A DNA stretch of 41,793 bases from Microtetraspora niveoalba (lineage in GTDB: Bacteria > Actinomycetota > Actinomycetes > Streptosporangiales > Streptosporangiaceae), in assembly GCF_001570405.1 (NCBI RefSeq), contig NZ_BBYM01000015.1, positions 1-41,793 of the forward strand, written 5' to 3'. This document shows, one piece after another, positions 8,835 through 33,695 of this stretch. The translations under genes were made by a program, and so were the position numbers. Each line of letters begins with the position of its first letter. Within the stretch, counting starts at the first letter, position 1. The notes under the pieces are model-generated. The model worked only from the letters and a program-made list of their open reading frames with translations, made no database searches and was not told the DNA's origin.

Positions 8835-8878
8835 GAGATAACGTCTCTATTGACGGAACCTTCTGTGCCGGTCTAGCG
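8835..8878 (+). promoter_or_regulatory. Regulon operator (site A) and promoter of the TauD-like unit
   Basis: GAGATAACGTCTC at 8835-8847 matches the shared island operator GAGAYRNYRTCTC at every position. Two bases later TTGACG (8850-8855), a 17-bp spacer and CTAGCG (8873-8878) make a sigma-70-type promoter reading toward the small ORF at 8911. The operator therefore abuts the -35 from upstream. Confidence 0.75.
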
Positions 8879-8910
8879 TGGCGGAAAGACGACCACCGCA
8901 GGAGAGCGCC

Positions 8911-9039
8911 ATGATCCACGCAGCCGTACCCGGCTTCGCGGCGATCCTGTCCGGCTGGGAGGAACCGATGCGCGTCAGCCCGCCGCGGAAGGGCATGCGC
9001 CCGGGCACCGCCGCGGGAGATCCGCAGACCCCTTTCTGA
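8911..9039 (+). CDS. 42-residue small ORF ahead of the TauD-like gene
   Basis: First translatable frame behind promoter A. ATG at 8911 has AGGAG 6 nt upstream and lies about 25 nt after the predicted transcription start. It encodes MIHAAVPGFAAILSGWEEP followed by a basic, proline-rich tail ending in DPQTPF. Third codon positions are mostly G/C, as in real genes here. No family recognised. It may be a regulatory leader peptide or a small protein; a chance ORF is possible. The TauD-like gene begins 189 nt later with no other promoter evident. Confidence 0.5.
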   Translation: MIHAAVPGFAAILSGWEEPMRVSPPRKGMRPGTAAGDPQTPF

Positions 9040-9120
9040 TCCCGCCATCGGAGGCGAGCGGCGCCGCACGAGCGGTCCCGCGGCGTCGTCCGCCGTCCTC
9101 GCCCGCCCGGACCTTCGCGT

Positions 9121-9168
9121 CCCGGCTGTAATGCCGACCGCGATCCCGGCAGTAATCCCGGCTGTAAC
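9121..9168 (+). repeat. Three 12-bp repeats in the leader of the TauD-like gene
   Basis: CCCGGCTGTAAT (9121-9132), CCCGGCAGTAAT (9145-9156) and CCCGGCTGTAAC (9157-9168) lie between the small ORF and the dioxygenase start. The even spacing of the last two suggests slippage or protein binding; no function can be assigned. Confidence 0.6.
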
Positions 9169-9228
9169 GGCCCTTCCGAGCTGTCACCGCCTTCTGAGAC
9201 GACCCCCGAGCACTCGGAGTGCATCACC

Positions 9229-10305
9229 ATGACCACAGAAGTCTCCCTGTCCCCGATCAGCGGCCCCTCAGCGTGGCGCGGCGACGAGCTGGCCGGCTCC
9301 ACCGAATGGATCTACGTCCTCGGCGACGCCGAGCGCGAGGAGCTGGAGGAGGTCGGCCGCAGGTTCGTCGCCGACGACCCCGACCTGCGCACCGTGGTCG
9401 CCGACGACTACCCGCTCTCCGCCGCCCGCGGCCTGATCGACGAGTGCGCCCGCCAGATGGACGCCGGGCGCGGCTTCGTGCTCGTCCGCGGCCTGCGCAC
9501 CGACGAGTACGGCGACACGCTGGCCGGGGCGATCTTCTTCGTGATGGGCCTGCACCTCGGCACGCCGATGGAGCAGAACCAGCTCGGCGACGTGCTCGAC
9601 CACGTCATCGCCACGTCCAACAAGACGCTGGACGACCCGGGGGCGCTGCCGTCGCGGGTGCGCGACCGGCTGCCGTTCCACTCCGACAGCTCCGACGTCG
9701 TGGCCCTGATGTGCCTGCGCGCGTCGAAGGAGGGCGGCGCCAGCAGCCTGGTGAGCGGCACGGCGATCTACAACGAGATCCTGCGCCGGCGGCCCGAACT
9801 CGCCCCGCTGCTGTTCGAGCCCTGGCACTGGGACTGGCGCGGCCAGGACCCGGACGCGCCCGCCGACACCTACGTGTCGCCGATCTGCAGCTACGTGGAC
9901 GGCATCTTCAGCACGTACGCGGGCAGCTCGATGATCTTCTCGGCGCAGAAGTACGACGGCGTGCCCCCGCTGACCGAGGCCCAGGTCGAGCTGCTGCACC
10001 TCTACGACGAGATCACCCAGGAGCCGGGGCTCGCGCTCGACATGGACTTCCAGCCGGGCGACGTGCAGTGGCTGCTGAACTACGCCGCCCTGCACTCGCG
10101 CACCGGGTACGTGGACTGGCCGGAGCCCGAGCGCCGCCGCCACCTGCTCCGCCTGTGGCTCAAGCGCGACGTGGGCCGCCCGCTCGTGGACGGCTTCGGC
10201 AAGAACGTCGTCAAGGAGCGCGGCGCCGAGGAGAAGAAGCCGATCGAGGGCGGGGCCTTCCGCATCGCCGAGGCCGTGGTCCCCAACCAGGACTGGGGCA
10301 ACTGA
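9229..10305 (+). CDS. TauD/TfdA-family Fe(II)/2-oxoglutarate dioxygenase
   Basis: 358-residue non-heme iron oxygenase that would hydroxylate or oxidatively cleave a small substrate while decarboxylating 2-oxoglutarate. The metal triad is visible: H151 and D153 in FHSDSSD and the distal H289 in LLNYAALHSRT; the arginine that binds 2-oxoglutarate is in RRRHLLRLWL near residue 308. The DVVALMCLRASKEGG stretch after the H-x-D places it in the larger TauD-like subgroup of unknown specificity, not with true taurine dioxygenases. ATG 9229 follows a distant CGGAGT. The gene is driven by operator site A and ends at a 44-bp palindrome, so it is a separate unit of the island regulon. Confidence 0.88.
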   Translation: MTTEVSLSPISGPSAWRGDELAGSTEWIYVLGDAEREELEEVGRRFVADDPDLRTVVADDYPLSAARGLIDECARQMDAGRGFVLVRGLRTDEYGDTLAGAIFFVMGLHLGTPMEQNQLGDVLDHVIATSNKTLDDPGALPSRVRDRLPFHSDSSDVVALMCLRASKEGGASSLVSGTAIYNEILRRRPELAPLLFEPWHWDWRGQDPDAPADTYVSPICSYVDGIFSTYAGSSMIFSAQKYDGVPPLTEAQVELLHLYDEITQEPGLALDMDFQPGDVQWLLNYAALHSRTGYVDWPEPERRRHLLRLWLKRDVGRPLVDGFGKNVVKERGAEEKKPIEGGAFRIAEAVVPNQDWGN

Positions 10306-10320
10306 CGGCCTGACGCCGGA

Positions 10321-10461: not shown

Positions 10462-10884
10462 TCAGGACCCGGACGGGTCCGCGAGCTGGCGGTTGACCTC
10501 GCCGCTGTCCCAGTAGTCCGTACGGTGGGTGATCAGGCCGTGCGCGCCGACCCGGAAGCGGAACACGCCGCGCACCTCGACCGGCCTGCCGCCGGCCGAG
10601 ACCAGCCGGAACGACATCCGGTACGCGAGCGCCGCCCGGCCGTCCTCCACGATCAGGTCCTCGATCGTGTAGCGGAGGTCGGCGAAGTCGGCCAGGAAAC
10701 CGGTGAGGTTGGCGCGGTAGCCGTCCCGGCCGGTGACGCTCCGGCCGAGCGCGGAGGTGTGCTCGTTGACGAAGTCCGGGCTCACGCAGGCCGCGATCGC
10801 GTCGGCGTCGTGCGCGTTGAGCGCGTCGACGTACCTCGTGACCGCGGCCCGGGTGAGCTCGGAGCTCAGGAGGGGTTCGCCCAC
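10462..10884 (-). CDS. SnoaL/NTF2-like protein
   Basis: About 140 residues with the cone-shaped NTF2 fold pattern: YVDALNAHDADAIAACVSPDFVNEH, then GRDGYRANLTGFLADFADLRYTIEDLIVEDGRAALAYRM (read in pieces), and a closing RFRVGAHGLITHRTDYWD. Such proteins are polyketide-type cyclases, ketosteroid isomerase-like enzymes, or non-catalytic partners. It is the last gene of the transporter operon. The GTG at 10884 overlaps the VOC gene end by 19 nt; no clear ribosome site exists, so the exact start is uncertain (a CTG at 10869 would also couple). Function in the pathway is unknown; a hydratase or isomerase role is possible. Confidence 0.75.
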   Translation of the reverse strand: MGEPLLSSELTRAAVTRYVDALNAHDADAIAACVSPDFVNEHTSALGRSVTGRDGYRANLTGFLADFADLRYTIEDLIVEDGRAALAYRMSFRLVSAGGRPVEVRGVFRFRVGAHGLITHRTDYWDSGEVNRQLADPSGS

Positions 10885-11318
10885 AGCTTGCGCACCGTGT
10901 CGAACACCTGCTGGTTGTGCGAGATCTCGATGACGTTGCCGTCGGGGTCCTTCAGGGCGCAGATATAGCCGACCGGGTCGGGCATGTCCCGGGGCTCCCA
11001 GTGCAGGCAGCCCAGCTCGCGCGCCCGCTCGGCGACGGCGTCCACGTCGCCGCGCTCGGGCACCTCGATGCCGATGTGCGCGAACGGCGTGAGCAGGCCG
11101 AGCTGCCCGCCCTTGTCCTTGTTGAACGAGACGAGCACCAGCACCATCGGCGTCTCGACCTGCTTGTCGTTGGACAACCACGCGCTCTCGCCGTCGGCGT
11201 CCCGGAAGCGCTCCACGACCACCAGCGGCGTCAGCGACGTGTAGAAGTCGATGGCCTTGTCGAGGTCCCCGGTGGGCAGCGCGACGTGCGTCCAGCGCGC
11301 CTGGGTCAGACCGCTCAT
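10866..11318 (-). CDS. VOC (glyoxalase/extradiol-fold) protein
   Basis: 150-residue single-domain vicinal oxygen chelate protein: HVALPTGDLDKAIDFYTSLT at the N-terminus (first beta-alpha-beta unit), AHIGIEVPERGDVDAVAERA in the second, and DPDGNVIEISHNQ at the end, giving possible metal ligands H and E. Members include glyoxalases, epimerases, ring-cleavage enzymes and resistance proteins; this one is not assignable more closely. ATG 11318 has GAGGAG at ideal spacing. It lies 53 nt after the second permease gene on the same strand and overlaps the SnoaL-like gene, so both probably act on the imported compound. Confidence 0.82.
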   Translation of the reverse strand: MSGLTQARWTHVALPTGDLDKAIDFYTSLTPLVVVERFRDADGESAWLSNDKQVETPMVLVLVSFNKDKGGQLGLLTPFAHIGIEVPERGDVDAVAERARELGCLHWEPRDMPDPVGYICALKDPDGNVIEISHNQQVFDTVRKLWANPS

Positions 11319-11371
11319 GTTTCTCCTCTTTCGTGTGATCAACAAAGGGATGGAAGGTGTGGCCTCGGGGG

Positions 11372-12286
11372 CTATGTGGAGCCCCGTTCGAAGGGCTGCC
11401 CGAGCGCCTTCGGTTCTCGGTTCCCGGTCGCGAAGACCAGCATCGCGAGCAGCGCGAGCAGGTACGGCGCGACCACCAGGAGCTGCGAGTTCAGCGTCAG
11501 GCCCAGCGCGGGCAGCGCGAGGCGCATGGCGTCGGCGAGCCCGAACAGCGCGCAGCCGAGCAGGGTGCGGCCCAGCCGCCACGCGCCGAAGATCACCGCG
11601 GCGATGACGATGTAGCCGCGCCCGGCCGTCATGTTCTGGTTGAACGATCCGACCTCGCCGACGGCCAGGTAGGCGCCGCCCAGGCCGGCGAGCGCGCCGC
11701 ACCACAGCAGCGCCTGGCGGCGGCGCAGGTTGACGCGGATGCCGGTGACGTCCGCCGCCTGCGGCTGCTCGCCGACGGCCCGCAGTTCGAGCCCCCACCT
11801 GCTGCGCTCCACCAGCCACCAGGTCAGCGGGATGACGAGGATCAGCAGGTAGACCGGCCACCGTTCGACGAACAGCGGATGGCCGATCAGGGGGATGTCC
11901 CGCAGCCAGGGGACGCTCACCTGCGCCACCTGGTGGGAGTCGAAGGAGCTGATCGTGATCAGGTAGCTGGTCAGGCCCAGCATGAGGGCGTTGAGCACCA
12001 GGCCGACCACGAACGTGTTGATCTCCAGGCGATGGGCCAGGTTGCCGTGCACGAACCCGATCACCAGCCCGATCAGCACGCCCGCCACGAGGCCGGCGGT
12101 CGCGCTGCCGGTGGCCGAGGCGGTGGCGACCGAGCCGAACGCCGCGCCCAGCATCATGGCCTCGAGGGAGATGTTCATCGTCCCGGCCCGTTCGGCGAGG
12201 TACTCGCCGCAGGCGGCGAGGGCCAGCGGCACGGCGAGCCTGATCCCGCTGGACAGGATCGTCGAGATGTCGTCGGCGGCGCTCAC
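11372..12286 (-). CDS. BMP-type ABC transporter permease, second subunit
   Basis: 304-residue inner-membrane permease of the nucleoside-type (YufQ/NupC-like, BPD_transp_2) family. Signature-like stretches: GEYLAERAGTMNISLEAMMLGAAFG near residues 27-50 (split by the first helices) and GGAYLAVGEVGSFNQNMTAGRGY in the second half. Eight or more hydrophobic helices. Its GTG overlaps the stop of the first permease (GTGA), a sign of translational coupling and 1:1 assembly. It forms the pore with the first permease and is powered by the fused ATPase upstream. Confidence 0.9.
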   Translation of the reverse strand: MSAADDISTILSSGIRLAVPLALAACGEYLAERAGTMNISLEAMMLGAAFGSVATASATGSATAGLVAGVLIGLVIGFVHGNLAHRLEINTFVVGLVLNALMLGLTSYLITISSFDSHQVAQVSVPWLRDIPLIGHPLFVERWPVYLLILVIPLTWWLVERSRWGLELRAVGEQPQAADVTGIRVNLRRRQALLWCGALAGLGGAYLAVGEVGSFNQNMTAGRGYIVIAAVIFGAWRLGRTLLGCALFGLADAMRLALPALGLTLNSQLLVVAPYLLALLAMLVFATGNREPKALGQPFERGST

Positions 12287-13461
12287 GCGATGGCCTCCTC
12301 TGCGACGGGCGCGGCCTCCTGGCGGGGTCCCGCCGTACGGCCTCCGGAACGGCGCCGCCTGGCCAGGGCGACGACCACGGGCGGCGCGACGAAGGCGAGC
12401 ACCAGCAGCGCCTTGACCACGTCCACCAGGAACGACGGCACCCCGGTAGCGGCCAGGAAGCCGCCGCCGGAGCGCAGCACGCCGAACAGCAGCGCCACCG
12501 GAACGGCGGCCAGCGGCCGGTTCCGCGCGACGAGGGCGACCAGCAGGCCGTCCCAGCCGATGTTCATCGCCATGCCCGGCTGCAGCCGGTTCACGCCGAC
12601 CGGGCTGGCCAGCAGCACCGCCCCGGCCAGACCGGCCAGCGCGCCGGAGATCGCCAGGGCGGCCCCGCCCAGCGCGTTGACGCGTACGCCGGCGTGCTTG
12701 GCGGCGAGGGGGTTGCGGCCGAGCATCGTCAGCCTGAACCCCCAGGGGGTGCGCGTGATCGCCACCGCGACGAGCACGGCGGCGCCCACCGCGAGGATCA
12801 GGCCGCCGTTGACCTGCAGGCCGGGATACTCGCCGAACGAGCCGAGCAGCCCGGAGGGGGGCATCGGGTTCGACTGCGGGGAGACCGGCGCGTTGCCGAC
12901 CCGCGACTCCTGCAGCAGCCACGGCATGTTCACCGCGTACGCGACGACCTGCTGGGCGACGAAGGTCATCAGCATGGTGCTGACCACGACGTTGACCCCG
13001 CGCAGCCGGTGCATCAGCGAGCTGAGACCGGCCCACGCGCCCGCCGCCAGCGCGGCGGCCAGCAGCATGAGCACGAGCAGCGCGGGACCGGTGATCGCCA
13101 GGCGCAGGCCGACCCAGGCGGCGGCGAGCGCGCCGATGAGCACCTGGCCTTCCTGGCCGATGTTGAACAGGCCGGAGCGGGCGCTGACGCACGCGCCGAC
13201 CGCGACGAGCAGCAGCGGCGCCGTGTAGAGCAGCGTCGAGGTCCACGCCGTCCAGTCGGCCATGCTGCCCTGGTACAGGGCCTGGACCGACGCCGACGGC
13301 GAGCCCCCGGTGACCGCGATGAGGGCGGACGACAGGGCGAGCGCCGCCAGCACGGCGACCGCGGTCGCCGCCGGGGTCTGCCAGCCGTACGTGCGGGGGG
13401 CCAGCAGGCCGAGCAGGCGGCGGCCGGTCCCCGACGGGGCGCCGGGCGAGGTGGCGGTCAC
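12283..13461 (-). CDS. BMP-type ABC transporter permease, first subunit
   Basis: 392-residue permease (YufP-like, BPD_transp_2 family) with about ten membrane helices. Recognisable motifs: CVSARSGLFNIGQEGQVLIG, the typical mid-protein loop, and LRGVNVVVSTMLMTFVAQQV. A later GVRVNALGGAALAISGALAGLAG region matches the partner subunit's equivalent. The C-terminus is a basic cytosolic tail. GTG start at 13461 overlaps the ATPase stop by 4 nt and its own stop overlaps the next start, so ATPase, permease 1 and permease 2 are one translational train. Confidence 0.9.
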   Translation of the reverse strand: MTATSPGAPSGTGRRLLGLLAPRTYGWQTPAATAVAVLAALALSSALIAVTGGSPSASVQALYQGSMADWTAWTSTLLYTAPLLLVAVGACVSARSGLFNIGQEGQVLIGALAAAWVGLRLAITGPALLVLMLLAAALAAGAWAGLSSLMHRLRGVNVVVSTMLMTFVAQQVVAYAVNMPWLLQESRVGNAPVSPQSNPMPPSGLLGSFGEYPGLQVNGGLILAVGAAVLVAVAITRTPWGFRLTMLGRNPLAAKHAGVRVNALGGAALAISGALAGLAGAVLLASPVGVNRLQPGMAMNIGWDGLLVALVARNRPLAAVPVALLFGVLRSGGGFLAATGVPSFLVDVVKALLVLAFVAPPVVVALARRRRSGGRTAGPRQEAAPVAEEAIA

Positions 13462-15179
13462 GCGGCCACCCCTCCCACCAGCATGCCGAGCCGCTCGGCG
13501 GTGGCCTCGGCGGTGGGCAGGACGCCGGTGATCCGGCCCGAGGAGATGACCGCGATCCGGGACGCCAGAGCCATGACCTCCTCCAGTTCCGTGGATATCA
13601 GCAACACCGCGACGCCTCCCGACGCCGCCTCGCGCAGCCGCCGGTACATGTCCTCGATGGCGCCGACGTCGAGCCCGTGGGTGGGCTGCGCGGCGACGAG
13701 CACGCACGGCCCGGCCGACAACTCGCGGGCGAGGACGACCCGCTGCTGGTTGCCCCCGGACAGGCTGCGCACCGGGGCGTCCAGGGACGGGGCGACGATG
13801 TTGAACTCGGCGGCCAGGCGCCGGGCGACGGCGTGCATCTTCCTGCGGCTGACGAAGCCGCGCCCGCTGACGTCGCCGACGGACTTCATCACCAGGTTCT
13901 CGGCGACGCTCATGTCGAGCACGACGCCGGAGCTGTGCCGGTCCTCGGGGATGATGCCGAGCCCGGCCCGGTGCAGCGCCCCCGGGCGCTCCAGCTCGAC
14001 GGGACGCCCCGCCAGCTCGACCGTGCCGGAGGCAGGGAGGAGGAGGCCGGAGAGCAGGTCGCCGAGGGTGGACTGGCCGTTGCCCTCGACGCCGTACAGG
14101 CCGACGATCTCGCCGGGGGCGACGTCCAGGCTGAGGTCGGACAGGACGGTCACGCCGTCGGTCGTCACGGTCAGCCCGCTCAGCCGCAGGGCCGGCACGA
14201 TCTCGGTCGCGGCGCCGCCGGACGGGACGCCGGGTGCCGCGGCTACGGCCGGGGGCGCGGGTGCGGCCGCCGGCTCGGCGGGAGGCTCGGCGGGAGGTTC
14301 GGTCGGGGGCGTGTCCTCCGAGGGCGGGGTTCCGGGGGACGCGGTCTCCGCGGGAGCGGTTCCGGCCGGGGGCGCGCCGTCCACGGGCAACATCCCGAGC
14401 GCGGCCCCCTCGGCGCGCAGCGACACGTCCCGGCCGACCATCCAGCGGGCCAGCTCGGGCGGCGTGGTGTCGCGGGTCGCGCTGTGGAAGACCACCCTCC
14501 CCTTGCGCAGCACGGTCACCCGGTCGGTGGCCGCGGTGATCTCCGCCAGCTTGTGGCTGATCAGGATCACCGCGCGGTTCTCGGCGCGTACGACGTGGCG
14601 CAGGACGGTGAACAGCTCCGCGGACTCGGCCTGGGTGAGCACCGAGGTCGGCTCGTCGAGGATGAGCACCGACGGGTCCCGGCGCAGGCACTTGATCAGC
14701 TCGACCCGCTGCCGCTCCCCGGCGGAGAGCCGGTCCACGCGGGCCGCCGGGTCGATCGGCAGGCCGTACCGGCGGGACACCTCCTCCACCTGTCGGCACG
14801 CCGCCGCGCGGTCGATCCGCCCGGTGTCGCCGAGGATCACGTTCTCCCAGACGGTCAGCGCGTCGATCAGGCTGAAGTGCTGGTGCACCATGCCGATGCC
14901 CAGCGCCACGGCGGCCTGCGGGTTGTGCACGTCCACGGGCGTGTCTCCACGCATGATCGTCCCGGAGTCGCGCTGGACCAGCCCGAGGAGGATCTTCATC
15001 AGCGTCGACTTGCCCGCGCCGTTCTCTCCGAGCAGCCCGTGGATCTCGCCGTGCTCGACGTCGAGATCCACGTCGTCGGAGGCGACGACCGGGCCGTAGC
15101 GCTTGCTGATGCCCCGCAGCCGCAGAGCGGGTGTCGATGGCGGGGTCAGCTCCCTCGCCCGCTCGTCAACGGTCCTCAT
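13458..15179 (-). CDS. BMP-type ABC transporter ATPase, tandem nucleotide-binding domains
   Basis: 573-residue cytosolic ATPase with two ABC cassettes. The first has GENGAGKST, signature LSAGERQRV and LILDEPTS; the second has a degenerate GVEGNGQST, signature LSGGNQQRV and VAAQPTHGLDVGAIE in place of DEPT. The weakened second cassette is normal for sugar/nucleoside-type fused ATPases (YufO, RbsA). Unusually, a proline/alanine/glutamate-rich linker of roughly 60 residues (about 265-325, many PPAEP/PPTE units) separates the cassettes. The ATG at 15179 follows the binding-protein stop by one base. Confidence 0.93.
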   Translation of the reverse strand: MRTVDERARELTPPSTPALRLRGISKRYGPVVASDDVDLDVEHGEIHGLLGENGAGKSTLMKILLGLVQRDSGTIMRGDTPVDVHNPQAAVALGIGMVHQHFSLIDALTVWENVILGDTGRIDRAAACRQVEEVSRRYGLPIDPAARVDRLSAGERQRVELIKCLRRDPSVLILDEPTSVLTQAESAELFTVLRHVVRAENRAVILISHKLAEITAATDRVTVLRKGRVVFHSATRDTTPPELARWMVGRDVSLRAEGAALGMLPVDGAPPAGTAPAETASPGTPPSEDTPPTEPPAEPPAEPAAAPAPPAVAAAPGVPSGGAATEIVPALRLSGLTVTTDGVTVLSDLSLDVAPGEIVGLYGVEGNGQSTLGDLLSGLLLPASGTVELAGRPVELERPGALHRAGLGIIPEDRHSSGVVLDMSVAENLVMKSVGDVSGRGFVSRRKMHAVARRLAAEFNIVAPSLDAPVRSLSGGNQQRVVLARELSAGPCVLVAAQPTHGLDVGAIEDMYRRLREAASGGVAVLLISTELEEVMALASRIAVISSGRITGVLPTAEATAERLGMLVGGVAA

Positions 15180-15180
15180 G

Positions 15181-16278
15181 TCAGGATCCGAGCCTCTTGA
15201 CCTCGGCCGCCGGGTCGAACTTCTTGGCGCCGACGTCCGCCATGAACGCGTCGAGCTTCTTGGTGATCTCCGGCTTGTCGCCGCACAGCTTCACCGTGGG
15301 GTAGGGGTCGACGCCGAGCTGCCAGACCTTCTTGACGCCCATCTCCAGCTTGCCGGCGGCGAAGCCCTCCAGCGCCGAGGCGAAGTAGTCGCCGGGGCTG
15401 AACATCACCGACACGTCGAACTTCGGCTTGGTGGAGGCGCACTGGTCGGTGCCGGGCGTGAGGGTGTACACGTCCGCGGAGTTGGCCAGCTCGGTGGCGG
15501 CGTTCGTGGCGCCCCCGAGGTACGGGTACACCACCTTGACGCCCTGGCTGATCTGCGCCTGCATCGCCTCCTTGGCCTTGGCCGAGTCGTTCAGGTCGCC
15601 GGTGAAGGTGGTCACCACGGTCGCGTCGGGGATCACGAGGCGGATGCCCGCCCGGTACGCCCGGACGGCGGACTGGGTGAAGTCCACCTCGGGGCCGGTG
15701 ATGAACCCGGCCTTCTTGTCGCCGCGCTCCTGCAGCAGCAGACCGGCGGCGTACCCGGCGGCCAGCAGGCTCTGGTTGGCGTCGTCCACCGAGAGCATGA
15801 TCTTGGGCGTCTGCGGGATGTTGTCGGAGGACGGCACGTACCAGGCGGTCTTGCCGCAGACCGGCTCCTCGGAGGCGGGGATCGCGTCCCTCAGCTCCGA
15901 GGCGCCCAGCGCGATCATGTCCACCTTCTGCTGGCAGAGCGCCCGCGCGGCGTTGAGCGCGTCGCTGGTGTTGACGTTGCCGCGCTTGATCAGGGTCCAG
16001 CCCTGGGAGGTGGCGAACTTCTCCGCCGTGTCCACGAAGCTCTGGTAGTAGCCGCCGTCGTTGATGTCTCCGGGGCTGAGCACCCCGATGACGACCTTGC
16101 CGTCGCCGTTGACGTCCGGCTGGCCGGCCTGCGCGCCGCCGCCCGCCGTACTGTCTCCGGCCGCGGCCGGAGCCTTGACCGCGGTCGCGTCGTTGCTCGC
16201 GCAGCCGGCCAGGGCGATCGCGCCGAAGCAGGCGATCATCGCACCGGCGGCCTTGCCCGCTCGGTAGTTTCCGGCCAT
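15181..16278 (-). CDS. BMP-family substrate-binding lipoprotein
   Basis: 365-residue extracellular binding protein anchored by a lipid. The signal peptide ends in a lipobox L23-A-G-C26. The mature protein has the two-lobed BMP/PnrA pattern: KVVIGVLSPGDINDGGYYQS at the ligand-pocket start, ARALCQQKVDMIALGASEL, KAGFITGPEVDFTQ and VMFSPGDYFASALEGFAAGK. Known members bind nucleosides or purines, but the usual FN-Q/S aromatic pocket motif is here DGGYYQS, so the ligand may differ. ATG 16278 has GAGAGGATCG upstream. It is separated by 147 nt from the amidohydrolase gene, the largest gap in this operon. Confidence 0.9.
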   Translation of the reverse strand: MAGNYRAGKAAGAMIACFGAIALAGCASNDATAVKAPAAAGDSTAGGGAQAGQPDVNGDGKVVIGVLSPGDINDGGYYQSFVDTAEKFATSQGWTLIKRGNVNTSDALNAARALCQQKVDMIALGASELRDAIPASEEPVCGKTAWYVPSSDNIPQTPKIMLSVDDANQSLLAAGYAAGLLLQERGDKKAGFITGPEVDFTQSAVRAYRAGIRLVIPDATVVTTFTGDLNDSAKAKEAMQAQISQGVKVVYPYLGGATNAATELANSADVYTLTPGTDQCASTKPKFDVSVMFSPGDYFASALEGFAAGKLEMGVKKVWQLGVDPYPTVKLCGDKPEITKKLDAFMADVGAKKFDPAAEVKRLGS

Positions 16279-18875: not shown

Positions 18876-18901
18876 GCTTACCCTCCGACGGATCGCGAAA
18901 G

Positions 18902-25158: not shown

Positions 25159-25282
25159 TGTTCTTCCTTCGTGTCGGGGCGGTGGCCCGGGGCACGCTCG
25201 CGTTCCGAGTGCCGAGACGTCGTCGTGGGGCACGAAACGCATTCCCGGGCATGGACGGAGCTGTCCGGCGATGACGATCTTC

Positions 25283-26985: not shown

Positions 26986-27297
26986 ATGGCCTACGTCGTG
27001 ACCGACGCGTGCGTGGACGTTCAGGACAGATCGTGCGTCGAGGAGTGCCCGGTCGACTGCATCTACGAGGGAGACCGGATGATGTACATCCATCCGGACG
27101 AGTGCGTGGACTGCGGCCGGTGCGAGCCGGTCTGCCCGGTGACGTCGATCTACCACAGCGAGGACCTGCCGCCGGACCTGGCCGGGTTCGCCCGGATCAA
27201 CACCGAGTTCTTCGCCGACCTCGGCTCGCCCGGTGGCGCGCGGAAGGTCGGCCGGGCCGGGGCCGACCACCCGGCCGTCTCCGGAGGCCGGTCGTGA
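26986..27297 (+). CDS. 7Fe ferredoxin (3Fe-4S/4Fe-4S)
   Basis: 103-residue bacterial-type ferredoxin. Cysteines C9, C17, C21, C25 and C40, C43, C46, C50 follow the actinobacterial FdxA pattern: DRSCVEECPVDCIYEG for the first cluster, HPDECVDCGRCEPVCPV for the second, indicating one 3Fe-4S and one 4Fe-4S centre. The C-terminal ~35 residues are an unstructured tail. ATG with AGGAGG at ideal distance; its stop overlaps the reductase start (GTGA). As the Rieske oxygenase downstream has no dedicated electron donors next to it, this ferredoxin/reductase pair is the natural candidate; a link to other oxygenases is equally open. Confidence 0.92.
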   Translation: MAYVVTDACVDVQDRSCVEECPVDCIYEGDRMMYIHPDECVDCGRCEPVCPVTSIYHSEDLPPDLAGFARINTEFFADLGSPGGARKVGRAGADHPAVSGGRS

Positions 27298-28316
27298 CCG
27301 CCGGTGTGCCGGAGGCTCCGGAGGAGACGGGAGCGCCGGGCCCGGTCCACGAGGTGGACCTGGTCATCGTCGGCGCCGGCCCCTCCGGGCTGTACGGCGC
27401 CTACTACGCCGGGTTCCGCGGCATGTCCGTCGCGGTGATCGACTCGCTGCCCGAGCCCGGCGGGCAGGTGGCCGCGCTGTACCCGGAGAAGGACATCTTC
27501 GACATCGCCGGATATCCGGCGGTCAAGGGGCAGACGCTGGTCGACGCCCTGGTCGCCCAGGCGAGCCAGGCCGATCCGCTCTACCTGCTCGGGGAGAGCG
27601 CCGTGGAACTGCGCCACGACCCCGAGTCGGTCGAGGTGGTCACCGACGCGGGCACCCTGGTGCGGGCCAAGGCCCTGCTCCTCACCGGGGGCATCGGCAC
27701 GTTCACCCCCAGGGAGCTCCCCGTGGGCGGCGAGTACCTCGGGCGCGGCCTGCGCTACTTCGTCCGCAGGCTGGACGAGCTGGCCGGGCAGGACGTGGTG
27801 GTGGTCGGCGGCGGCGACTCCGCCCTCGACTGGGCGCTCGCCCTGGAGCCGATCGCCCGCTCGCTCACGCTGGTGCACCGCCGGGACGCGTTCCGCGCCC
27901 ACGAGCAGAGCGTCGCCCGGCTCCGCTCGTCGTCCGTACGCGTGCTGACGCCGTACGAGGTGGCCGGCGTCGCCGGTGACGGCCGGATCGCCGAGGTGAC
28001 CGTCGAACGGGTCCGCGGCGGCGACATGATCACCCTGCCCGCCCAGACCGTGGTGGCCGCCCTCGGCTTCATCGCCGATCTCGGCCCGATGCAGAAGTGG
28101 GGCCTCGACCTGCGCAGGCGGCACGTCCTCGTCGACCGTTCGATGCGGACGAACCTGGACCGGGTGTTCGCCGCCGGGGACATCAGCGACTACGACGGCA
28201 AGGTCCGGCTGATCTCCGTCGGCTTCGGGGAGGCCGCCGCGGCGGTCAACAACCTGGCGCCCCTCGTCAACCCGGCTTTCGGCACGGTTCCCGGGCATTC
28301 GTCGGACGCGGCGTGA
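27294..28316 (+). CDS. Ferredoxin-NAD(P)+ reductase, thioredoxin-reductase-like type
   Basis: 340-residue flavoprotein of the type-2 FNR family (related to thioredoxin reductase but without the CxxC redox disulfide). FAD motif LVIVGAGPSGLYGAYYAGF, SLPEPGGQVAALYPEKDIFDIAGYP characteristic of the family, NAD(P) motif VVVVGGGDSALDWALAL with HRRDAFRAHE, and the second FAD site FAAGDISDYDGKVRLISVGFGEAA. It reduces the neighbouring ferredoxin with NAD(P)H. GTG start overlaps the ferredoxin stop. 104 nt upstream of IclR gene 2. Confidence 0.92.
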   Translation: MTAGVPEAPEETGAPGPVHEVDLVIVGAGPSGLYGAYYAGFRGMSVAVIDSLPEPGGQVAALYPEKDIFDIAGYPAVKGQTLVDALVAQASQADPLYLLGESAVELRHDPESVEVVTDAGTLVRAKALLLTGGIGTFTPRELPVGGEYLGRGLRYFVRRLDELAGQDVVVVGGGDSALDWALALEPIARSLTLVHRRDAFRAHEQSVARLRSSSVRVLTPYEVAGVAGDGRIAEVTVERVRGGDMITLPAQTVVAALGFIADLGPMQKWGLDLRRRHVLVDRSMRTNLDRVFAAGDISDYDGKVRLISVGFGEAAAAVNNLAPLVNPAFGTVPGHSSDAA

Positions 28317-28420: not shown

Positions 28421-29215
28421 ATGCCGGGGCAGCGCGACGACGCGGACCAGTCCGGTGCGGCTCCCTCCGCGGACGAGACCCCCGCGATCCAGACGGTGCG
28501 CCGCGCGGCGCTGATCCTGAGCGCGTTCACCGTCGAGCGCCCCCGGCTCAGCCTGAGCGAGATCACCGCCCGCCTCGGCACCAGCAAGCCCACCGCGCAC
28601 CGCTACACGCGGGCGCTGCGGGCGGCCAACCTGCTCCGTTACGACGCCAGGCAGGCGACCTACACCCTGGGGCCCGAGGTGCTCGCCCTGGAGGCGGCCG
28701 CCCGCGCCGGGCTGCCCATCGCCGCCGCGGCCGGGCCGCACCTCGACCTGCTGGTCCGCGAGACCAACCAGACCGCCGTGCTCAGCGTCTGGAACGGCGA
28801 GAGCCCCGTGGTCGTACGCTGCGTCGACAACACCGACGGCGACATCCGGCTGAGCGTGCGCACCGGCTCCACCCTCGACCTGCTGCGCTCGGCGCAGGGC
28901 CGGGTCTTCTGCGCGTACCTGCCGGTGGGGGAGGTCCCCGGGCTGGCGCGCAGGCTGCGCGCCACACCGGAGCTGCGCGGGCTGATCGAGCAGGTGCGGG
29001 AGTCCGGGATCGCGGTCAACTCGCCCGCCGACCACGGCGTGCGGGTGATCGCCGCGCCGATCTTCGAAGGCGACCAGATCGTGGCGTCGATGGCCGTGGT
29101 GAGCACGGTCGCCGCGCTCGCCGGCGAGACCGAGCGGCGGGTGACCGACGCGCTGCGCGCCGCCTCGGGCCGGCTGTCCGCCGAGCTCGGCGGCACCGCC
29201 GCCACCCCCGCCTGA
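28421..29215 (+). CDS. IclR-family transcriptional regulator 2
   Basis: 264-residue paralogue of IclR regulator 1. Winged helix: PAIQTVRRAALILSAF, LSLSEITARLG, recognition helix TSKPTAHRYTRAL (near residues 55-67, two conservative or helix-start changes against regulator 1). Effector domain: LVRETNQTAVLSVWNGE, AQGRVFCAYLP, HGVRVIAAPIF. Differences are concentrated in the effector domain and N-terminus, which suggests the same DNA target but different ligands. ATG 28421 with GGAGGAG upstream. It sits after the ferredoxin and reductase genes and could be transcribed from site E. A 43-bp tandem repeat begins at its end. Confidence 0.9.
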   Translation: MPGQRDDADQSGAAPSADETPAIQTVRRAALILSAFTVERPRLSLSEITARLGTSKPTAHRYTRALRAANLLRYDARQATYTLGPEVLALEAAARAGLPIAAAAGPHLDLLVRETNQTAVLSVWNGESPVVVRCVDNTDGDIRLSVRTGSTLDLLRSAQGRVFCAYLPVGEVPGLARRLRATPELRGLIEQVRESGIAVNSPADHGVRVIAAPIFEGDQIVASMAVVSTVAALAGETERRVTDALRAASGRLSAELGGTAATPA

Positions 29216-29301: not shown

Positions 29302-29584
29302 CCCCGCCGCCCAGCCCTCCAGCCGTCGTCCGCGTCTTCCGCCGTCCCGCCCCCGGCGTCCTTCCCGCGCCTTCCCCCCCGCCGCGGGCGCGCCGCACCC
29401 GGCCCTCGTCCCCGGCCCCTGTGCGCCGACAACGCCCGCCATCGCGGGCCCGCGACCGGTGCGCGCCTTCGGATCGAGGGCCGGGCGGGTTCCCGCGTGC
29501 CCGCGTGTACGCCGCGTCGCCCAGCGTGCGGTGTCCCCCGCGTCCGTCCGCCCGCACGGGGACGCCGATGATGTGACGTAATAC
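29302..29584. other. Non-coding GC-rich stretch between iclR2 and the FAH operon
   Basis: About 280 bp of C-rich sequence after the 43-bp repeats. No frame with a ribosome site, no clear strong hairpin and no operator match were found before site D. Confidence 0.4.
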
Positions 29585-29631
29585 GAGATATTGTTTCGCA
29601 TATTGACATGGGCCGAATTTTCCTCTTACGT
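29585..29631 (+). promoter_or_regulatory. Operator site D and promoter of the FAH operon
   Basis: GAGATATTGTTTC (29585-29597), preceded by C, one mismatch from the operator consensus. Five bases later TTGACA (29603-29608), 17-bp spacer, TTACGT (29626-29631). The predicted transcript starts near 29638 and carries about 100 nt before the small ORF at 29743. Confidence 0.75.
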
Positions 29632-29742
29632 TCGTGCGTATCCCTCCAACCCCCCTCCCGGCCGCCCACGCCCGTACCGCCGGACGGCTCAGCCCTCCGG
29701 CGGCGGCGGGCGCGGGCGGCGAACGGGAACCAAGGAGCCTGC

Positions 29743-29868
29743 ATGCGAACGCGACGCGTGGGCGCCCCCGCGGCCCTGATCACCGTCCCCCTCTCCGGGG
29801 TGTACGGCGACGAGGGCGCGGCCGCCCCCCGGACGGCGGCCCCCCGGACGGCGGCGGCCGCCCGATGA
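29743..29868 (+). CDS. 41-residue leader ORF coupled to the FAH-family gene
   Basis: ATG with a strong AAGGAG 6 nt upstream, the best ribosome site in this leader. Encodes MRTRRVGAPAALITVPLSG, then VYGDEG and an APRTAAPRTAAAAR tail made by a 15-bp duplicated segment. Its TGA overlaps the ATG of the FAH gene (ATGA), and that gene has no ribosome site of its own, so translation of the FAH protein likely depends on this ORF. No family recognised. It may be a coupling or attenuation peptide. Confidence 0.6.
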   Translation: MRTRRVGAPAALITVPLSGVYGDEGAAAPRTAAPRTAAAAR

Positions 29869-30704
29869 CCGCGCTCAACCTGGTGGCCACCCCCGGCGGG
29901 CTCGCCCGCGTCGACGGCGACGCCGCCGTCCTCCTCGACCTGCCGTACGGCGACGTCGCCGAGCTGCTCGCCGAGGGCGAGGGCTTCGCGCCGGCGCGGG
30001 GCGCGCGCGAGCTGGACCGGGTCCCCCTGGCCGACCTCGACCTCCTGGCGCCGCTGGCCCGTACACGGGCGATCTGGGGCGTCGGGCTGAACTACCACTC
30101 CAAGGCCGAGCTGACCGGCCGGCCGGTGCCGGACGAGCCGATCCTCTTCCTGCGCGCCCTGTCCGCCGTCTCCGCGCCCGGCGCGGAGGTGGAGCTGCCC
30201 CAGGACCGGTCCGGCCAGATCGACTACGAGGCCGAGGTCGCCTTCGTGGTCGGCCGCCGCATGTCACGCGTACGGCCGGAGCGGGTGTGGGAGCACCTCG
30301 CCGCCGTCACCGCCGCGAACGACATGACCGCCCGCGACGTCATGGTCGCGACCGGGACCCCGTCCCTGGCCAAGAGCTTCCCCGGATTCGGCGCGCTCGG
30401 GGCCTCGGTCCTCGAACTGGCCGGGGTGCCCGACCCCGACGCCGTCGCCGTGCGCGCCACGGTCAACGGCGTCGTCCACCAGGACTCCAGCACCGCCGAG
30501 CTGATCTTCCCGGTGCCCGACCTGATCTCGCGGATCTCCCGCTTCGCCGCGCTCGAACCCGGAGACGTGGTGCTGACCGGCACCCCCGCCGGCACGGGAC
30601 AGGACCGCGGGGTCTTCCTGGACGCGGGCGACGAGGTGGAGATCACCGTGCCGGGGGTGCTGCCGCTGCGCACGCGGTACCGGGCGCTCGCCGGCCGTTC
30701 CTGA
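29865..30704 (+). CDS. Fumarylacetoacetate hydrolase-family enzyme (COG0179-like)
   Basis: 279-residue FAH-fold enzyme acting on 2-oxo/2-hydroxy acids made by meta ring cleavage (hydrolase, isomerase, decarboxylase or hydratase activity). A ~65-residue N-domain precedes the catalytic core: IWGVGLNYHSKAELTG, LFLRALSAVSAPGAEV, metal-binding QIDYEAEVAFVVGRR (E-x-E), TAANDMTARDVM, AKSFPGFGALG, and LEPGDVVLTGTPAGTG. The E-E-D metal set looks intact. ATG 29865 lacks a ribosome site and is coupled to the leader ORF. First enzyme gene of the operon with amidohydrolase, HpcH aldolase and cupin. Confidence 0.88.
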   Translation: MTALNLVATPGGLARVDGDAAVLLDLPYGDVAELLAEGEGFAPARGARELDRVPLADLDLLAPLARTRAIWGVGLNYHSKAELTGRPVPDEPILFLRALSAVSAPGAEVELPQDRSGQIDYEAEVAFVVGRRMSRVRPERVWEHLAAVTAANDMTARDVMVATGTPSLAKSFPGFGALGASVLELAGVPDPDAVAVRATVNGVVHQDSSTAELIFPVPDLISRISRFAALEPGDVVLTGTPAGTGQDRGVFLDAGDEVEITVPGVLPLRTRYRALAGRS

Positions 30705-30742
30705 CCGCGCCCGCTTCCGAACCGCTCCCCGGCCGCCCGCCC

Positions 30743-30787
30743 GCCTCCCCGGAGAGCCTGCCCCGGGGAGGCGGCTCCCCGGGGAGC
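30743..30787. terminator. Two adjacent hairpins between FAH and amidohydrolase genes
   Basis: GCCTCCCCGG (30743-30752) pairs perfectly with CCGGGGAGGC (30763-30772); immediately after it GCTCCCC/GGGGAGC (30774-30787) is a 14-bp palindrome. They lie in a 252-bp gap within one operon with no new promoter visible, so they may be a partial terminator or an RNA-stability element. Confidence 0.5.
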
Positions 30788-30956
30788 AGGCCCCGGCCCA
30801 CGACGTTCCGCCCGGCCGTCCAGCCGTCCGGCCGCACCGCCGGAGACCCGCCGGGGTCGCCCAATCGTCCGCGTCCACTCCGCTTCCACCGTGCGGCGCC
30901 CCGCCGCGCCCGCCCCCGCGCCCCGAGGCCGGGGTCTCCCCGCTGAAGGAGATTCG

Positions 30957-32144
30957 ATGACCGAGACAGATGTTTCCTACGATCTCGTCCTGACGAACGG
31001 CACCGTCTTCGACACCGAGGCCGGGACGTCCGCGATCGCGGACGTGGCGATCTCGGGCGACCGGGTCGCGCGGATCACCCCGTCCCTCGACCCGGGCGCG
31101 AGAGAACGCGCCAGGGAGGTCGTGGACTGCTCCGGCCGCTGGGTGCTCCCCGGCCTGGTCGAGGGGCACACCCACATCTTCGAGAACGTGTCGAAAGTGG
31201 GGGCGCCGCCGGACGAGGCCCACCTGCGCAGGGGAGTGGTGGCCGCCGCCGACGCGGGCACGGTCGGCGCGTCCACGTTCGCGGCCTTCGACGCCTACGT
31301 GGTCGGCCGGGCCGAGATGCGGCTGGTGAACTTCCTCAACGTCTCGGTGCTCGGCCTGATCGACTTCCGGTTCGGAGAGCTGCTGAACCCCGCGACGCTG
31401 GTCCCCGAGGACGCGCTGGCCGTGGCCCGCGACAACCCGGGCGTGGTCCGCGGCTTCAAGATCCGGCTGTCGGAGGACGTCGTCGGCCCGGCCTGGCGGT
31501 CCCTGCTCAAGGCGTCGCTCGAACTCGCCGACGAGGCGGGCCTGCCCCTCATGGTCCACATCGGCGAGACGGAGGAGCCGCTGCCCGACGTGCTGCCGAT
31601 GCTCCGCCCCGGCGACATCGTCGCCCACTGCTACACCGGCAAGCCGCACGGCATCCTCGCCGACGGCACGGTGATCCCCGCCGTACAGGAGGCCAGGGCG
31701 CGGGGCGTGCTGTTCGACAGTGCGCACGGCAAGAGCAACCTCAGCTTCGAGGTGGCCAGGCGGGCGATCGCCGAGGGCTTCCTGCCGGACCTGCTCACCT
31801 CCGACACCAGCGGGCGCAACTGGCGCGGACCGGTGTTCGACCTGGTCACGAGCGCGGCCAAGCTCCACGCGCTCGGCATGCCGATGGACGAGATCGCGCC
31901 GCGCATGACGATCGCCCCGGCCCGCGTCCTCGGCCTCGACGCCGAGGGGTACGGCACTCTCGTCGAGGGCGGTCCCGCCCACGTCACGGTGCTCGCCGAG
32001 ACCGAGGAGACGGTGCTGCCCGACGCGGCCGGCAACTCGATCGTCGCGCCCCGGCTCGAACCCGTCCTCATCCTGCACAAGGGCCGCAAGGTCGAGCCGA
32101 CCCCGTGGCGGGGACTCGCCGCCGACCCGGCCGGCTCCCGGTGA
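30957..32144 (+). CDS. Amidohydrolase/deacetylase-family metallohydrolase (Atu3266/dihydroorotase-like)
   Basis: 395-residue amidohydrolase. Motifs: LPGLVEGHTHIFENVSKVG (HxH metals), FKIRLSEDVVG with the probably carboxylated lysine, LMVHIGETEEPL, IVAHCYTGKPHGIL, FDSAHGKSNLSFEVARRAI and LTSDTSGRNWRGPVFDL with the catalytic Asp. This set matches the group once labelled dihydroorotase-like, one member of which (Atu3266) removes acetyl from acetyl-(R)-mandelate. So ester or amide deacylation of an aromatic hydroxy acid is a reasonable guess. ATG has GAAGGAG at ideal spacing. The aldolase gene follows closely. Confidence 0.85.
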   Translation: MTETDVSYDLVLTNGTVFDTEAGTSAIADVAISGDRVARITPSLDPGARERAREVVDCSGRWVLPGLVEGHTHIFENVSKVGAPPDEAHLRRGVVAAADAGTVGASTFAAFDAYVVGRAEMRLVNFLNVSVLGLIDFRFGELLNPATLVPEDALAVARDNPGVVRGFKIRLSEDVVGPAWRSLLKASLELADEAGLPLMVHIGETEEPLPDVLPMLRPGDIVAHCYTGKPHGILADGTVIPAVQEARARGVLFDSAHGKSNLSFEVARRAIAEGFLPDLLTSDTSGRNWRGPVFDLVTSAAKLHALGMPMDEIAPRMTIAPARVLGLDAEGYGTLVEGGPAHVTVLAETEETVLPDAAGNSIVAPRLEPVLILHKGRKVEPTPWRGLAADPAGSR

Positions 32145-32158
32145 CCTGGGAGACCCCC

Positions 32159-32959
32159 GTGACGGAGGCCCGGCGGCGGCTGCGGGCCGCGCTCGCCGCC
32201 GGGCGCCGCGTCACCGGCACGTTCGTCAAGCTGCCGACGGCCGACTGCGTGGACCTGGCCCGCCAGGCCGGGTTCGACTTCGTCGTCGTGGACGGCGAGC
32301 ACTCGGCGCTCCCGGACGAGACCGTCCTCGCGCTGGTACGGCACGCCGCCGCGACGGGCCTGCCCGCCCTGGTCCGGGTGCCGTCGGTGGACCCGGCGTG
32401 GGTCAACCGCGTGTTGGAGAGCGGGGCCGCCGGCGTGCAGCTCTCGATGCTGACCCGCGCCGCCGAGACCGCGGCCCTGGTCGCGGCCACCCGCTACGCG
32501 CCGGCCGGGGAACGCAGCGTCAGCCTGGCGCACCCGGCGGCGGGCTTCGGCGCGGCCGACCTGGCCGCGTACCTGGCCGCGGAGGAGCGCGACCCCCCGC
32601 TGCTCGTCGGGCAGATCGAGACCGCCGCGACCCGCGACCCGCTCGCGGACGTCGTACGCGGCCTCGACGTCGCCTTCGTCGGCACCACCGACCTCGCGGT
32701 CAGCCTCGGCCTCGCGAGCACCCCCGGGCACGCGGCGCTCGGGGCGCGGGTCGCCGAGATCGCCGAGGCGGCCCGCGCGGCGGGCACGTCCTTCGGAGGC
32801 TGGGTGGCCCGGCCGGAGGCCGCCCTGGTCGACGCGGCCGGGCTCGGCTCGGCCGCGTACGTCATCGCCGGATCCGACCTGCAGTTCCTCGGATCCGCGC
32901 TGCGCGCGACGGCCGCCCTCGCGCGCGAACTGCCCGGTCCGGACCCCGGGGCCTCGTGA
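32159..32959 (+). CDS. HpcH/HpaI-family class II aldolase
   Basis: 266-residue metal-dependent aldolase that splits 4-hydroxy-2-oxo acids into pyruvate (or glyoxylate) and an aldehyde, the last step of meta-cleavage pathways. Seen: TFVKLPTADCVDLARQAGFD, VVVDGEHSAL, RVPSVDPAWVNRVLESGAAGVQ, QIETAATRDP and VAFVGTTDLAVSLG. The usual GP-x-DLS loop is GTTDLAVS. GTG 32159 is preferred because GGGAG lies 6 nt upstream; a GTG at 32141 that overlaps the previous stop is an alternative and adds six residues. The cupin gene follows after 23 nt. Confidence 0.87.
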   Translation: MTEARRRLRAALAAGRRVTGTFVKLPTADCVDLARQAGFDFVVVDGEHSALPDETVLALVRHAAATGLPALVRVPSVDPAWVNRVLESGAAGVQLSMLTRAAETAALVAATRYAPAGERSVSLAHPAAGFGAADLAAYLAAEERDPPLLVGQIETAATRDPLADVVRGLDVAFVGTTDLAVSLGLASTPGHAALGARVAEIAEAARAAGTSFGGWVARPEAALVDAAGLGSAAYVIAGSDLQFLGSALRATAALARELPGPDPGAS

Positions 32960-32982
32960 GGGAGGCCGAGAAAGGAACGACG

Positions 32983-33357
32983 ATGTTCAGCCAGCACCTG
33001 CACGGCGTCGCCGTGAACTGGGACGACATCCCCGCGACCGAGATCCGTCCCGGCGTGCGGCGCAAGGTGTACTCCACCGACGAGGTCATGCTCGCCTGGC
33101 ACGAGCTGGAGGTCGGGATGACGCTCAACCCGCACCGCCACGACGACTTCGACCAGCTCGTGCTCATCCACCAGGGGCGCTGCACGTACTACGTGGACGG
33201 CGTCGGCCACGAGCTCGGCCCGGGATCGATGTTGCTGGTGCCCAAGGGGGCCGAGCACTACATCGAGCCCATCGAGGGCCCGTGCGTCAACGTGGACGTC
33301 TTCGCGCCCCCGCGCGCGGACTTCCGCGACGCCGTCTGGCTGCCGGACGGCCCCTGA
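32983..33357 (+). CDS. Cupin-domain protein
   Basis: 124-residue single-domain cupin. Motif 1: NPHRHDDFDQLVLIHQG (H-x-H and Gln in the Glu position); motif 2: LLVPKGAEHYIEP. The three His would hold a metal. Small cupins next to aromatic genes act as dioxygenases, isomerases or sensors; here no closer assignment is possible. ATG follows AAAGGAAC. Last gene before the long gap to the Rieske promoter. Confidence 0.82.
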   Translation: MFSQHLHGVAVNWDDIPATEIRPGVRRKVYSTDEVMLAWHELEVGMTLNPHRHDDFDQLVLIHQGRCTYYVDGVGHELGPGSMLLVPKGAEHYIEPIEGPCVNVDVFAPPRADFRDAVWLPDGP

Positions 33358-33644
33358 CCTCCGGAGGCGGCCCCGCCGTACCGGCTTCCGCGCGCCGGGA
33401 CGGCGGGCCGCGCGAGCGTGCCCGCGCTCCCGCGACGACGAACCCCGGTCACCCTCCCGGGCACGGCCCGCGGCGTGAGCGTGCCCGGAGACCGGCGCGG
33501 CGCGTCCGCGGACGCCGACCCGCCGACGCGGAGGGCCCCGCCGGACGGACGCCGCTGGTCGATGTGGAGCTGGGCATCTGCGTCGAACTGCCCGCTGCCC
33601 GGCTTACGCCGTGTAAGGCGCGGACCGGGATGAGCAGGAGCCCC
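33358..33644. other. Intergenic region between cupin gene and Rieske promoter
   Basis: About 290 bp. An 8-bp stem CCGGGCAC (33457-33464) / GTGCCCGG (33481-33488) could end the cupin operon; GAGCGTGCCCG occurs twice in the region. No supported gene on either strand. Confidence 0.45.
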
Positions 33645-33695
33645 TTGACATTCCGGGAGGCACCGGGCCAGCATCACATTGCGAGACGGTATCTC
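33645..33695 (+). promoter_or_regulatory. Promoter and operator site B of the Rieske oxygenase operon
   Basis: TTGACA (33645-33650) with a weak -10 CAGCAT (33669-33674, 18-bp spacer). Operator GAGACGGTATCTC (33683-33695), flanked by C and G, matches the consensus fully and lies over the predicted transcript start, the position expected for repression. Confidence 0.72.

Follow-up and report, generated by a model that had tools for sequence, protein, structure and literature searches.

The DNA considered here (the window) runs from base 1 to base 41,793 of a 218-kb contig of Microtetraspora niveoalba, an organism whose whole genome is 8.47 Mb and high-GC. It carries a set of catabolic genes (the island), two regulator genes of the IclR family and seven copies of a 13-base-pair (bp) inverted repeat, which are probably the operators of a single IclR-family regulon. 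The repeats had been proposed in an initial annotation, and all seven 13-mers were indeed found letter for letter at the positions claimed; all seven are intergenic, and in every one of them CGAGA or TCTCG is present at one half or both. The same annotation held that the motif is missing from the core flanks, which is true in general but not of a weak match at 8073 (scoring 16.0, as against 18.3-22.3 for the sites), and that promoter-like sequence lies beside each site, which stands for five of the seven, where a -35-like sequence is present, but not for S2 and S4, where a simple pattern found none. The sites and the regulator genes are as follows.

8823-8859: operator S1, core 8835-8847 GAGATAACGTCTC, abutting TTGACG (8850-8855), followed after N18 by TAGCGT (8874-8879); leads to a micropeptide open reading frame (ORF) and the TauD gene
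18890-18926: operator S2, core 18902-18914 TTGATGCCATCTC, upstream of the minus-strand operon for ADHa, amidohydrolase and BMP/ABC transporter
20611-20647: operator S3, core 20623-20635 AAGATGCCATCTC, common to the divergent genes for aldehyde dehydrogenase (ALDH, minus strand) and ADHb (plus strand)
21875-21911: operator S4, core 21887-21899 GAGACATTGTCTC, upstream of the P450-reductase fusion
24361-25158, minus strand: IclR1 regulator gene, Pfam HTH_IclR plus IclR_C, start set by congeners
25214-25226: S8, a decayed site, GAGACGTCGTCGT, upstream of IclR1, with better-kept counterparts in congeners
26776-26812: operator S5, core 26788-26800 AAGATGGCATCTC, with TTGACA at 26806-26811 and TACTGT at 26830-26835; serves fdxA-FNR-(IclR2) and the divergent M20-like gene
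28421-29215, plus strand: IclR2 regulator gene, Pfam HTH_IclR plus IclR_C, perhaps belonging to the S5 operon (104 bp separate it from FNR)
29573-29609: operator S6, core 29585-29597 GAGATATTGTTTC, with TTGACA at 29603-29608 and TACGTT at 29627-29632; FAA hydrolase operon
33671-33707: operator S7, core 33683-33695 GAGACGGTATCTC, just downstream of TTGACA (33645-33650) and CAGCAT (33669-33674); Rieske oxygenase operon

Two of these need further comment. At S2 there is a second, weaker site centred on 18928, 20 bp further on, whose matrix score of 16.1 is the eighth best in the window, while S8 has a matrix score of 12.1, a value reached by 2 of 360,000 background positions. The remaining genes of the island, called using Pfam, NCBIfam and a simple codon-usage caller, are these.

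9229-10305, plus strand: TauD-type dioxygenase gene
10462-18875, minus strand: likely operon of ADHa, a TRZ/ATZ-like amidohydrolase, a BMP solute-binding protein, an ABC ATPase, two permeases and a SnoaL-like protein
19121-20587, minus strand: aldehyde dehydrogenase
20664-21746, plus strand: zinc alcohol dehydrogenase (ADHb)
21978-24209, plus strand: P450 fused to a reductase and a [2Fe-2S] domain, start at 21942 or 21978
25283-26713, minus strand: M20-like hydrolase, weakly like 5-nitroanthranilate aminohydrolase
26986-28316, plus strand: FdxA ferredoxin and a thioredoxin-reductase-like protein, the latter labelled FNR on our own reading
29733-33357, plus strand: FAA hydrolase (start not settled), amidohydrolase, HpcH/HpaI aldolase and a small protein
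33736-36865, plus strand: Rieske oxygenase alpha and beta subunits, a Dabb protein and an extradiol-dioxygenase-like protein

Taken together these look like a pathway of ring hydroxylation, meta-cleavage and aldolase steps. The small protein of the FAA hydrolase operon, for which no family match was found, is by eye presumably a cupin, and the best solved relatives of the P450 fusion are 6kbh and 6laa, which we take to be CYP116B enzymes. No substrate can be named from solved structures, since those related to the P450, Rieske and extradiol proteins are broad; among plasmid matches the best was without annotation, and the others shown named only ring-hydroxylating or Rieske proteins. A CYP116B P450 acting in 2-hydroxyphenylacetate catabolism is reported for Cupriavidus (PMC8449657), a possible lead to the substrate.

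Searched for as the loose 13-mer GARAYNNNRTYTC with up to two mismatches, the motif is not enriched in the window over shuffles (72 matches, against 86.6 expected). Two other loose readings are likewise not very striking: GAGAYNNNRTCTCG has 13 exact matches at 10 places in the whole genome, three of those places being inside the island, while the general palindrome WTNCGAGAYGNCRTCTCGNAW occurs genome-wide at 17 places with up to three mismatches, four of them being sites listed above, and with up to two mismatches two of the three places are such sites. It is in their full sequence that the sites stand out: the extended string RAGAYNNNRTYTCGCRTTNTGA occurs genome-wide, with up to two mismatches, at seven places, six belonging to the island and the seventh falling within a called ORF, and with up to three mismatches it has 22 matches, as against 3 in a backward control. 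This last test is partly circular, as RAGAYNNNRTYTCGCRTTNTGA was read off the sites themselves, and for that reason a less circular matrix of 37 positions was built from 68 sites belonging to other families. With it, the seven sites are the seven top positions of the window (26.5-41.8), while the best score among 360,000 bases sampled elsewhere in the genome, in 18 background stretches chosen by hand, is 13.7.

The whole-genome scan with a site matrix that the initial annotation had put forward as a check was made with a calibrated cross-family model. This used 43 of 78 references, 29 from Streptosporangiaceae having been left out on purpose and six more by hand (one each from loci L031, L037, L067, L068, L069 and L070), and the search scored 150 of 1,471 first-look candidates. 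At an expectation value (E) of 10 or below there were 15 matches, 13 of them being the seven sites on one or both strands, and the other two being one match in coding DNA and one at the promoter of IclR3, a third IclR gene, which lies on a different contig; the E-values are rough, and for 7 of the 15 matches E is about 0.4 or more. A matrix covering 15 of the 37 positions and derived from Microtetraspora sites had first been used to find the training sites, which leaves some circularity. The genome matches at C14 and C10 were rejected as coding. In an unbiased count of 4- and 5-bp palindromes in 40 loci from outside the genus, GC-rich palindromes dominate; GAGAT-N3-ATCTC leads only when the comparison is confined to spacer-3 halves of the same composition, where it occurs in 13 loci and the runner-up in 4, and GAGA-N5-TCTC, with 47 occurrences against 5.3 expected, ranks twelfth by P, and the count was set aside as proof. 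On the evidence of the scans and of the comparisons that follow, the seven-site observation is confirmed as real and well above chance.

Among the loci found, the nearest named ones belong to Microtetraspora species (Streptosporangiaceae). Three congeners keep all seven sites and have an eighth before IclR1, while a fourth, M. malaysiensis, has six of the seven together with the IclR1 site, the stretch compared ending short of TauD. When six promoters were aligned over five Microtetraspora genomes, 75 of 78 columns in the 13-bp core proved invariant, as against 391 of 818 columns lying more than 18 bp from the centre. A kept IclR1 site is found in four named Microtetraspora loci (L024, L025, L026 and L039) and also in Streptosporangium amethystogenes (L027).

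More widely, 48 named loci were picked by IclR homology, 8 of them from Microtetraspora and the others from Streptosporangium, Micromonospora, Actinomadura, Nocardioides, Pimelobacter, Blastococcus, Pseudonocardia, Dactylosporangium, Acidimicrobiia and others. At least one match of at least 14 bits is present in 45 of the 48 (37 of the 40 outside Microtetraspora), whereas a reversed-sequence control gave 4 matches in 876 kb. Over the window and these loci, 144 of 154 matches are intergenic and 10 coding, although intergenic DNA makes up just 106,927 of the 918,040 bases (coding, 811,113). The same code stands before differing genes, namely those for Rieske oxygenase, FdxA, FAA hydrolase, TauD, ALDH/ADHb and IclR itself.

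A comparison across genomes points the same way. This IclR is present at E<=1e-70 in 8 of 200 family genomes, and WTNCGAGAYGNCRTCTCGNAW, with up to two mismatches, occurs at two or more places in all 8 of these, as against 15 of the 192 others (63 of the 192 have it at one or more places). With the trained model at E<=0.5, each of the 7 further IclR genomes gives 6-12 matches, whereas among 15 genomes lacking this IclR at the cut-off, hand-chosen and including 3 picked for their site clusters, matches appear in 4 and in none of them at more than one place.

As to the regulators themselves, membership of the IclR family is clear from Pfam scores for HTH_IclR and IclR_C of 41.5 and 57.2 bits (IclR1) and 43.1 and 63.4 bits (IclR2), the gathering thresholds being 22 and 24. 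IclR1, IclR2 and IclR3 have the string LGTSK[AP]TAHRYT[KR]ALR in common, and its recognition-helix portion TAHRY is present in 64 of 65 in-group IclR rows. In a tree the IclR1 rows (19, including IclR3) and the IclR2 rows (14) form clades with support of 100/100 each; both clades span Streptosporangiaceae and Micromonosporaceae, so that the IclR1/IclR2 pair is probably old. IclR3 lies away from the island.

G000:C5:81310-82107 (L020): IclR3, third paralogue, with counterparts in congeners (L033, L034, L035 and L038) and one operator before its own start

The site before IclR3 is centred 37-56 bp ahead of the start in all four named congener copies. Within 20 kb around IclR3 the only relative of an island protein is an ABC ATPase at 28%, and Pfam, applied to eight neighbours, revealed no catabolic operon, one of the eight having a Rieske domain joined to a membrane domain. 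This isolated site is the best sequence evidence that the motif would belong with the IclR protein and not with the pathway.

A logo of 82 distinct sites from outside the genus reads GAGAYG-N-CRTCTC, with C/G adjoining and further signal out to +/-17 (matches scoring below 15 or called coding having been excluded from the logos, from the box test and from the 68-site matrix). Around the 13-bp core there is thus a longer multi-box operator, RTYTY-N7-GAGAYG-N-CRTCTC-N7-GRRAY: among outward offsets of 8 to 24, the flanking box peaks exactly at +14 from the centre, at 47 of 196 half-sites, with no other offset or orientation tried exceeding 14, and 38 of 98 sites have an outer box above 3 bits on at least one side. 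The picture originally drawn, of a 13-bp motif, seven sites and two IclR genes, survives as regards the core and the sites, but has to be enlarged by the longer multi-box operator, the decayed eighth site and a third IclR gene elsewhere with the same site.

The position of the operators relative to predicted promoters bears on what they may do. Measured from the operator centre, the -35-like element TTGAC stands in the window at offsets of +5, +9, +12, -30 and -44 for the set S1, S3, S5, S6 and S7, and across all rows it returns at preferred offsets. TauD rows have TTGAC at +9 in six cases and at +13 in one more; it lies at +12 for FdxA (Microtetraspora, Streptosporangium and Micromonospora) and for FAA hydrolase in Microtetraspora, at +14 or -11 for FAA hydrolase of Actinomadura, Blastococcus and others, at -30 for ADHb and for IclR of Actinomadura and Blastococcus, at +5 for ALDH and at about -43 to -50 for Rieske. 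In many rows no TTGAC was found, second sites in shared promoters being among these. Where TTGAC does occur, then, the operator appears to lie on or against the predicted core promoter, a position compatible with repression.

The sites, their conservation, their co-occurrence with IclR and their position at five of the seven predicted promoters are matters of observation. The interpretation placed on them, to which a probability of roughly 0.82 is assigned, is that they are operators of one IclR-family regulon, in which ligand-released repressors would control an uncharacterised Rieske/P450/extradiol pathway; the comparative evidence (conservation, co-occurrence and cross-family models) points to the single dedicated regulon with an IclR-type operator that had been suggested at the outset. 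An IclR oligomer, formed by IclR1 and/or IclR2, would bind the core GAGAYG-N-CRTCTC together with the half-boxes 7 bp outside it and, by covering or abutting the promoter -35 or -10, would block transcription. Some compound of the pathway would then release IclR, and this release would turn on together BMP/ABC uptake, the P450, the Rieske oxygenase with FdxA and FNR, and the genes for ring cleavage and the lower pathway. Since IclR1 (through the decayed S8) and perhaps IclR2 (through S5) lie downstream of sites of their own, feedback would also be expected.

A number of points weigh against this interpretation. In the window itself the IclR1 site is decayed, and the outer box is poor at most sites, only S6 exceeding 3 bits. 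Choosing loci by IclR homology leaves room for another factor that always travels with IclR, and close relatives are among the rows counted for the intergenic proportion, the logo and the boxes, so that those counts are not counts of independent events. Three loci, L041 (15.8 kb) and the fragments L050 and L071 (about 4 kb), encode IclR without any match in the DNA compared, and L065 has only two weak matches, one of them coding. The search for TTGAC drew a blank in every row for ADHa, P450 and the M20-like gene, and likewise at IclR1 of Microtetraspora (L024-L026 and L039); repression is in any case unproven by position alone, and binding, the sign of regulation, the inducer and the pathway substrate are all inferred from sequence. 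Lastly, G127 and G145, genomes from a different genus, contain clusters of similar sites but not this IclR subfamily.

G127:C67:68053-81212 (L094) and G145:C4:404128-438341 (L092, L093): clusters of very similar palindromes, in another gene cluster with Rieske-like genes

The neighbours of these clusters include distant IclR genes and an FCD-GntR gene. The prediction that they would stand beside the IclR subfamily in question failed, with 0 of 15 genomes at E<=1e-40.

Of the paralogues, the likeliest to bind are IclR1 and/or IclR2. A version of events compatible with the preferred interpretation, and given only a little less than an even chance, is that just one local IclR (or IclR3) reads the sites, the other having a different target or acting as a co-regulator. 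Many loci do have a single IclR together with sites, and the helix of IclR2 is more diverged in Micromonospora; on the other hand, the two fully supported clades persist across two families, and near-identical helices of IclR1 and IclR2 are retained in Microtetraspora.

A more elaborate scheme, which is speculative and rather unlikely, would have the three paralogues act as sensors with diverged ligand domains sharing one operator code, so that one regulon would answer to several signals, while a micropeptide of a new family, encoded in the S1 operon beside the TauD-type dioxygenase, would feed back on the pathway, whether as a signalling peptide that is modified or as a leader that senses the ribosome.

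8911-9039, plus strand: ORF of 42 amino acids with conserved C-terminus GMRPGTAAGDPQTPF, between S1 and TauD
Window, L040, L042, L043, L045-L047, L057, L059, L061-L063 and L069: micropeptide just before a TauD-type dioxygenase gene

Allowing up to three substitutions, GMRPGTAAGDPQTPF ends open frames in 16 loci, including the window and three congener stretches. The end is found in 12 of 14 named loci with a TauD relative; L053 and L064, the remaining two, gave nothing on rough inspection. The near-invariant form of this end is RPGTAAGxxQxPF. Blastococcus and Trujillonella have RPGTAAGAVQVPF as the ending, there without a called operator ahead of the micropeptide. At E<=10 the micropeptide matched nothing in Pfam or NCBIfam, and no relevant paper containing its strings was found in the open-access collection searched; it is possible that it is a modified peptide or a leader peptide.

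Returning to regulation by IclR at these operators, its sign could be the reverse of that proposed, with IclR as an activator in the style of PcaU or PobR, or in a dual role, needing ligand in order to recruit polymerase. An activator could use a place just upstream of -35, which is where the core lies at S1, S5 and S6. Activators rarely work, however, from sites on or downstream of -10, and operators are found on the predicted -10 (S3 for ADHb, and the IclR promoters of Actinomadura and Blastococcus) or downstream of it (S7). Activators and dual regulators are known within the family, and three-box operators are known for PcaU (PMC8222616), but activation nonetheless seems distinctly improbable.

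That some regulator outside the IclR family, always co-inherited with the cluster, binds the sites is a good deal less probable again. In its favour are the selection of loci by IclR and the similar sites near the FCD-GntR gene of G127 and G145. Against it, IclR3 has its site without such a cluster around it, no other regulator family turned up among the island ORFs scanned with Pfam and NCBIfam, and the box spacing matches IclR group 2 and three-box sites as published (PMC8222616). Finally, chance palindromes in GC-rich DNA, for which the failure of the loose 13-mer to exceed shuffles might be cited, can be dismissed as a negligible prospect in the face of the core conservation, the cross-family matrix, the whole-genome model and the genome comparison with the trained model.

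What emerges is an operator code, tested by computation, for an IclR subfamily that occurs across Actinomycetota, with which regulon members could be listed from sequence; the Rieske/P450/extradiol pathway concerned is widespread but, as far as could be found, uncharacterised. It also becomes possible to test directly why one operator should serve two or three IclR paralogues, and an inducible-promoter part for GC-rich actinomycetes is a possible use.

Comparison with known systems begins with the survey of Suvorova and Gelfand published in 2021 (PMC8222616), which describes three-box operators, PcaU among them, and tandem sites 18-22 bp apart. Its group 2 layout, inverted boxes with 1-2 bp between them, is that of GAGAYG-N-CRTCTC, though the group 2 letters, TGRAACA-N1-2-TGTTYCA, are not those seen here, position -4 being G in 96% of sites, not A, and position -1 being G in 73%. 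An extra outer box at group 1 spacing is also present, if weak in the window. With inner boxes in the group 2 layout and the outer peak at +14, the operator is therefore two inner group 2-type boxes plus outer boxes at group 1 spacing, i.e. their three-box arrangement. Box orientation, group 1 outer spacing, the weak tandem partner of S2 at 20 bp and the placing of IclR genes under their own sites are all shared with the motifs of that survey; the letters (GAGAYG as opposed to GRAACA) and the occurrence of outer boxes on both sides in some sites are not.

Nearest in letters is the operator of the IclR-family regulator KdgR of gammaproteobacteria, RWWGAAACGNCGTTTCAKKA in Table 1 of that survey, to the shape of which the initial annotation aptly compared the repeat. 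Both GAAACG-N-CGTTTC and GAGAYG-N-CRTCTC are 13-bp odd palindromes with one central free base, serving a catabolic regulon with an IclR-family regulator, but the third base of the box changes from A to G (GAAACG to GAGAYG), and the pathway here is of aromatic type, not for pectin; against the KdgR equivalog model the two proteins score 52.2 and 51.2 bits, where the cut-off is 275. The best NCBIfam match is TIGR02431 (PcaR/PcaU/PobR), at 80.4 and 83.6 bits, which is far below its curated cut-off of 284.75. Those regulators resemble the present ones in family and in serving aromatic catabolism, but have a consensus of their own, GTNCG-N5-6-CGNAC (PMC8222616). By function the closest described system is PheR of Sphingobium (PMC13273656), a substrate-released repressor of the IclR family for a phenanthrene-catabolic cluster, which differs in having the essential core GCAACG and in acting, as described there, at one cluster promoter. 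In the open-access collection to which the literature search was limited, no relevant paper with the core strings was found, nor, among the papers listed, any on this regulon. The operator code is new, while the system to which it belongs, an IclR regulon, is of an ordinary kind.

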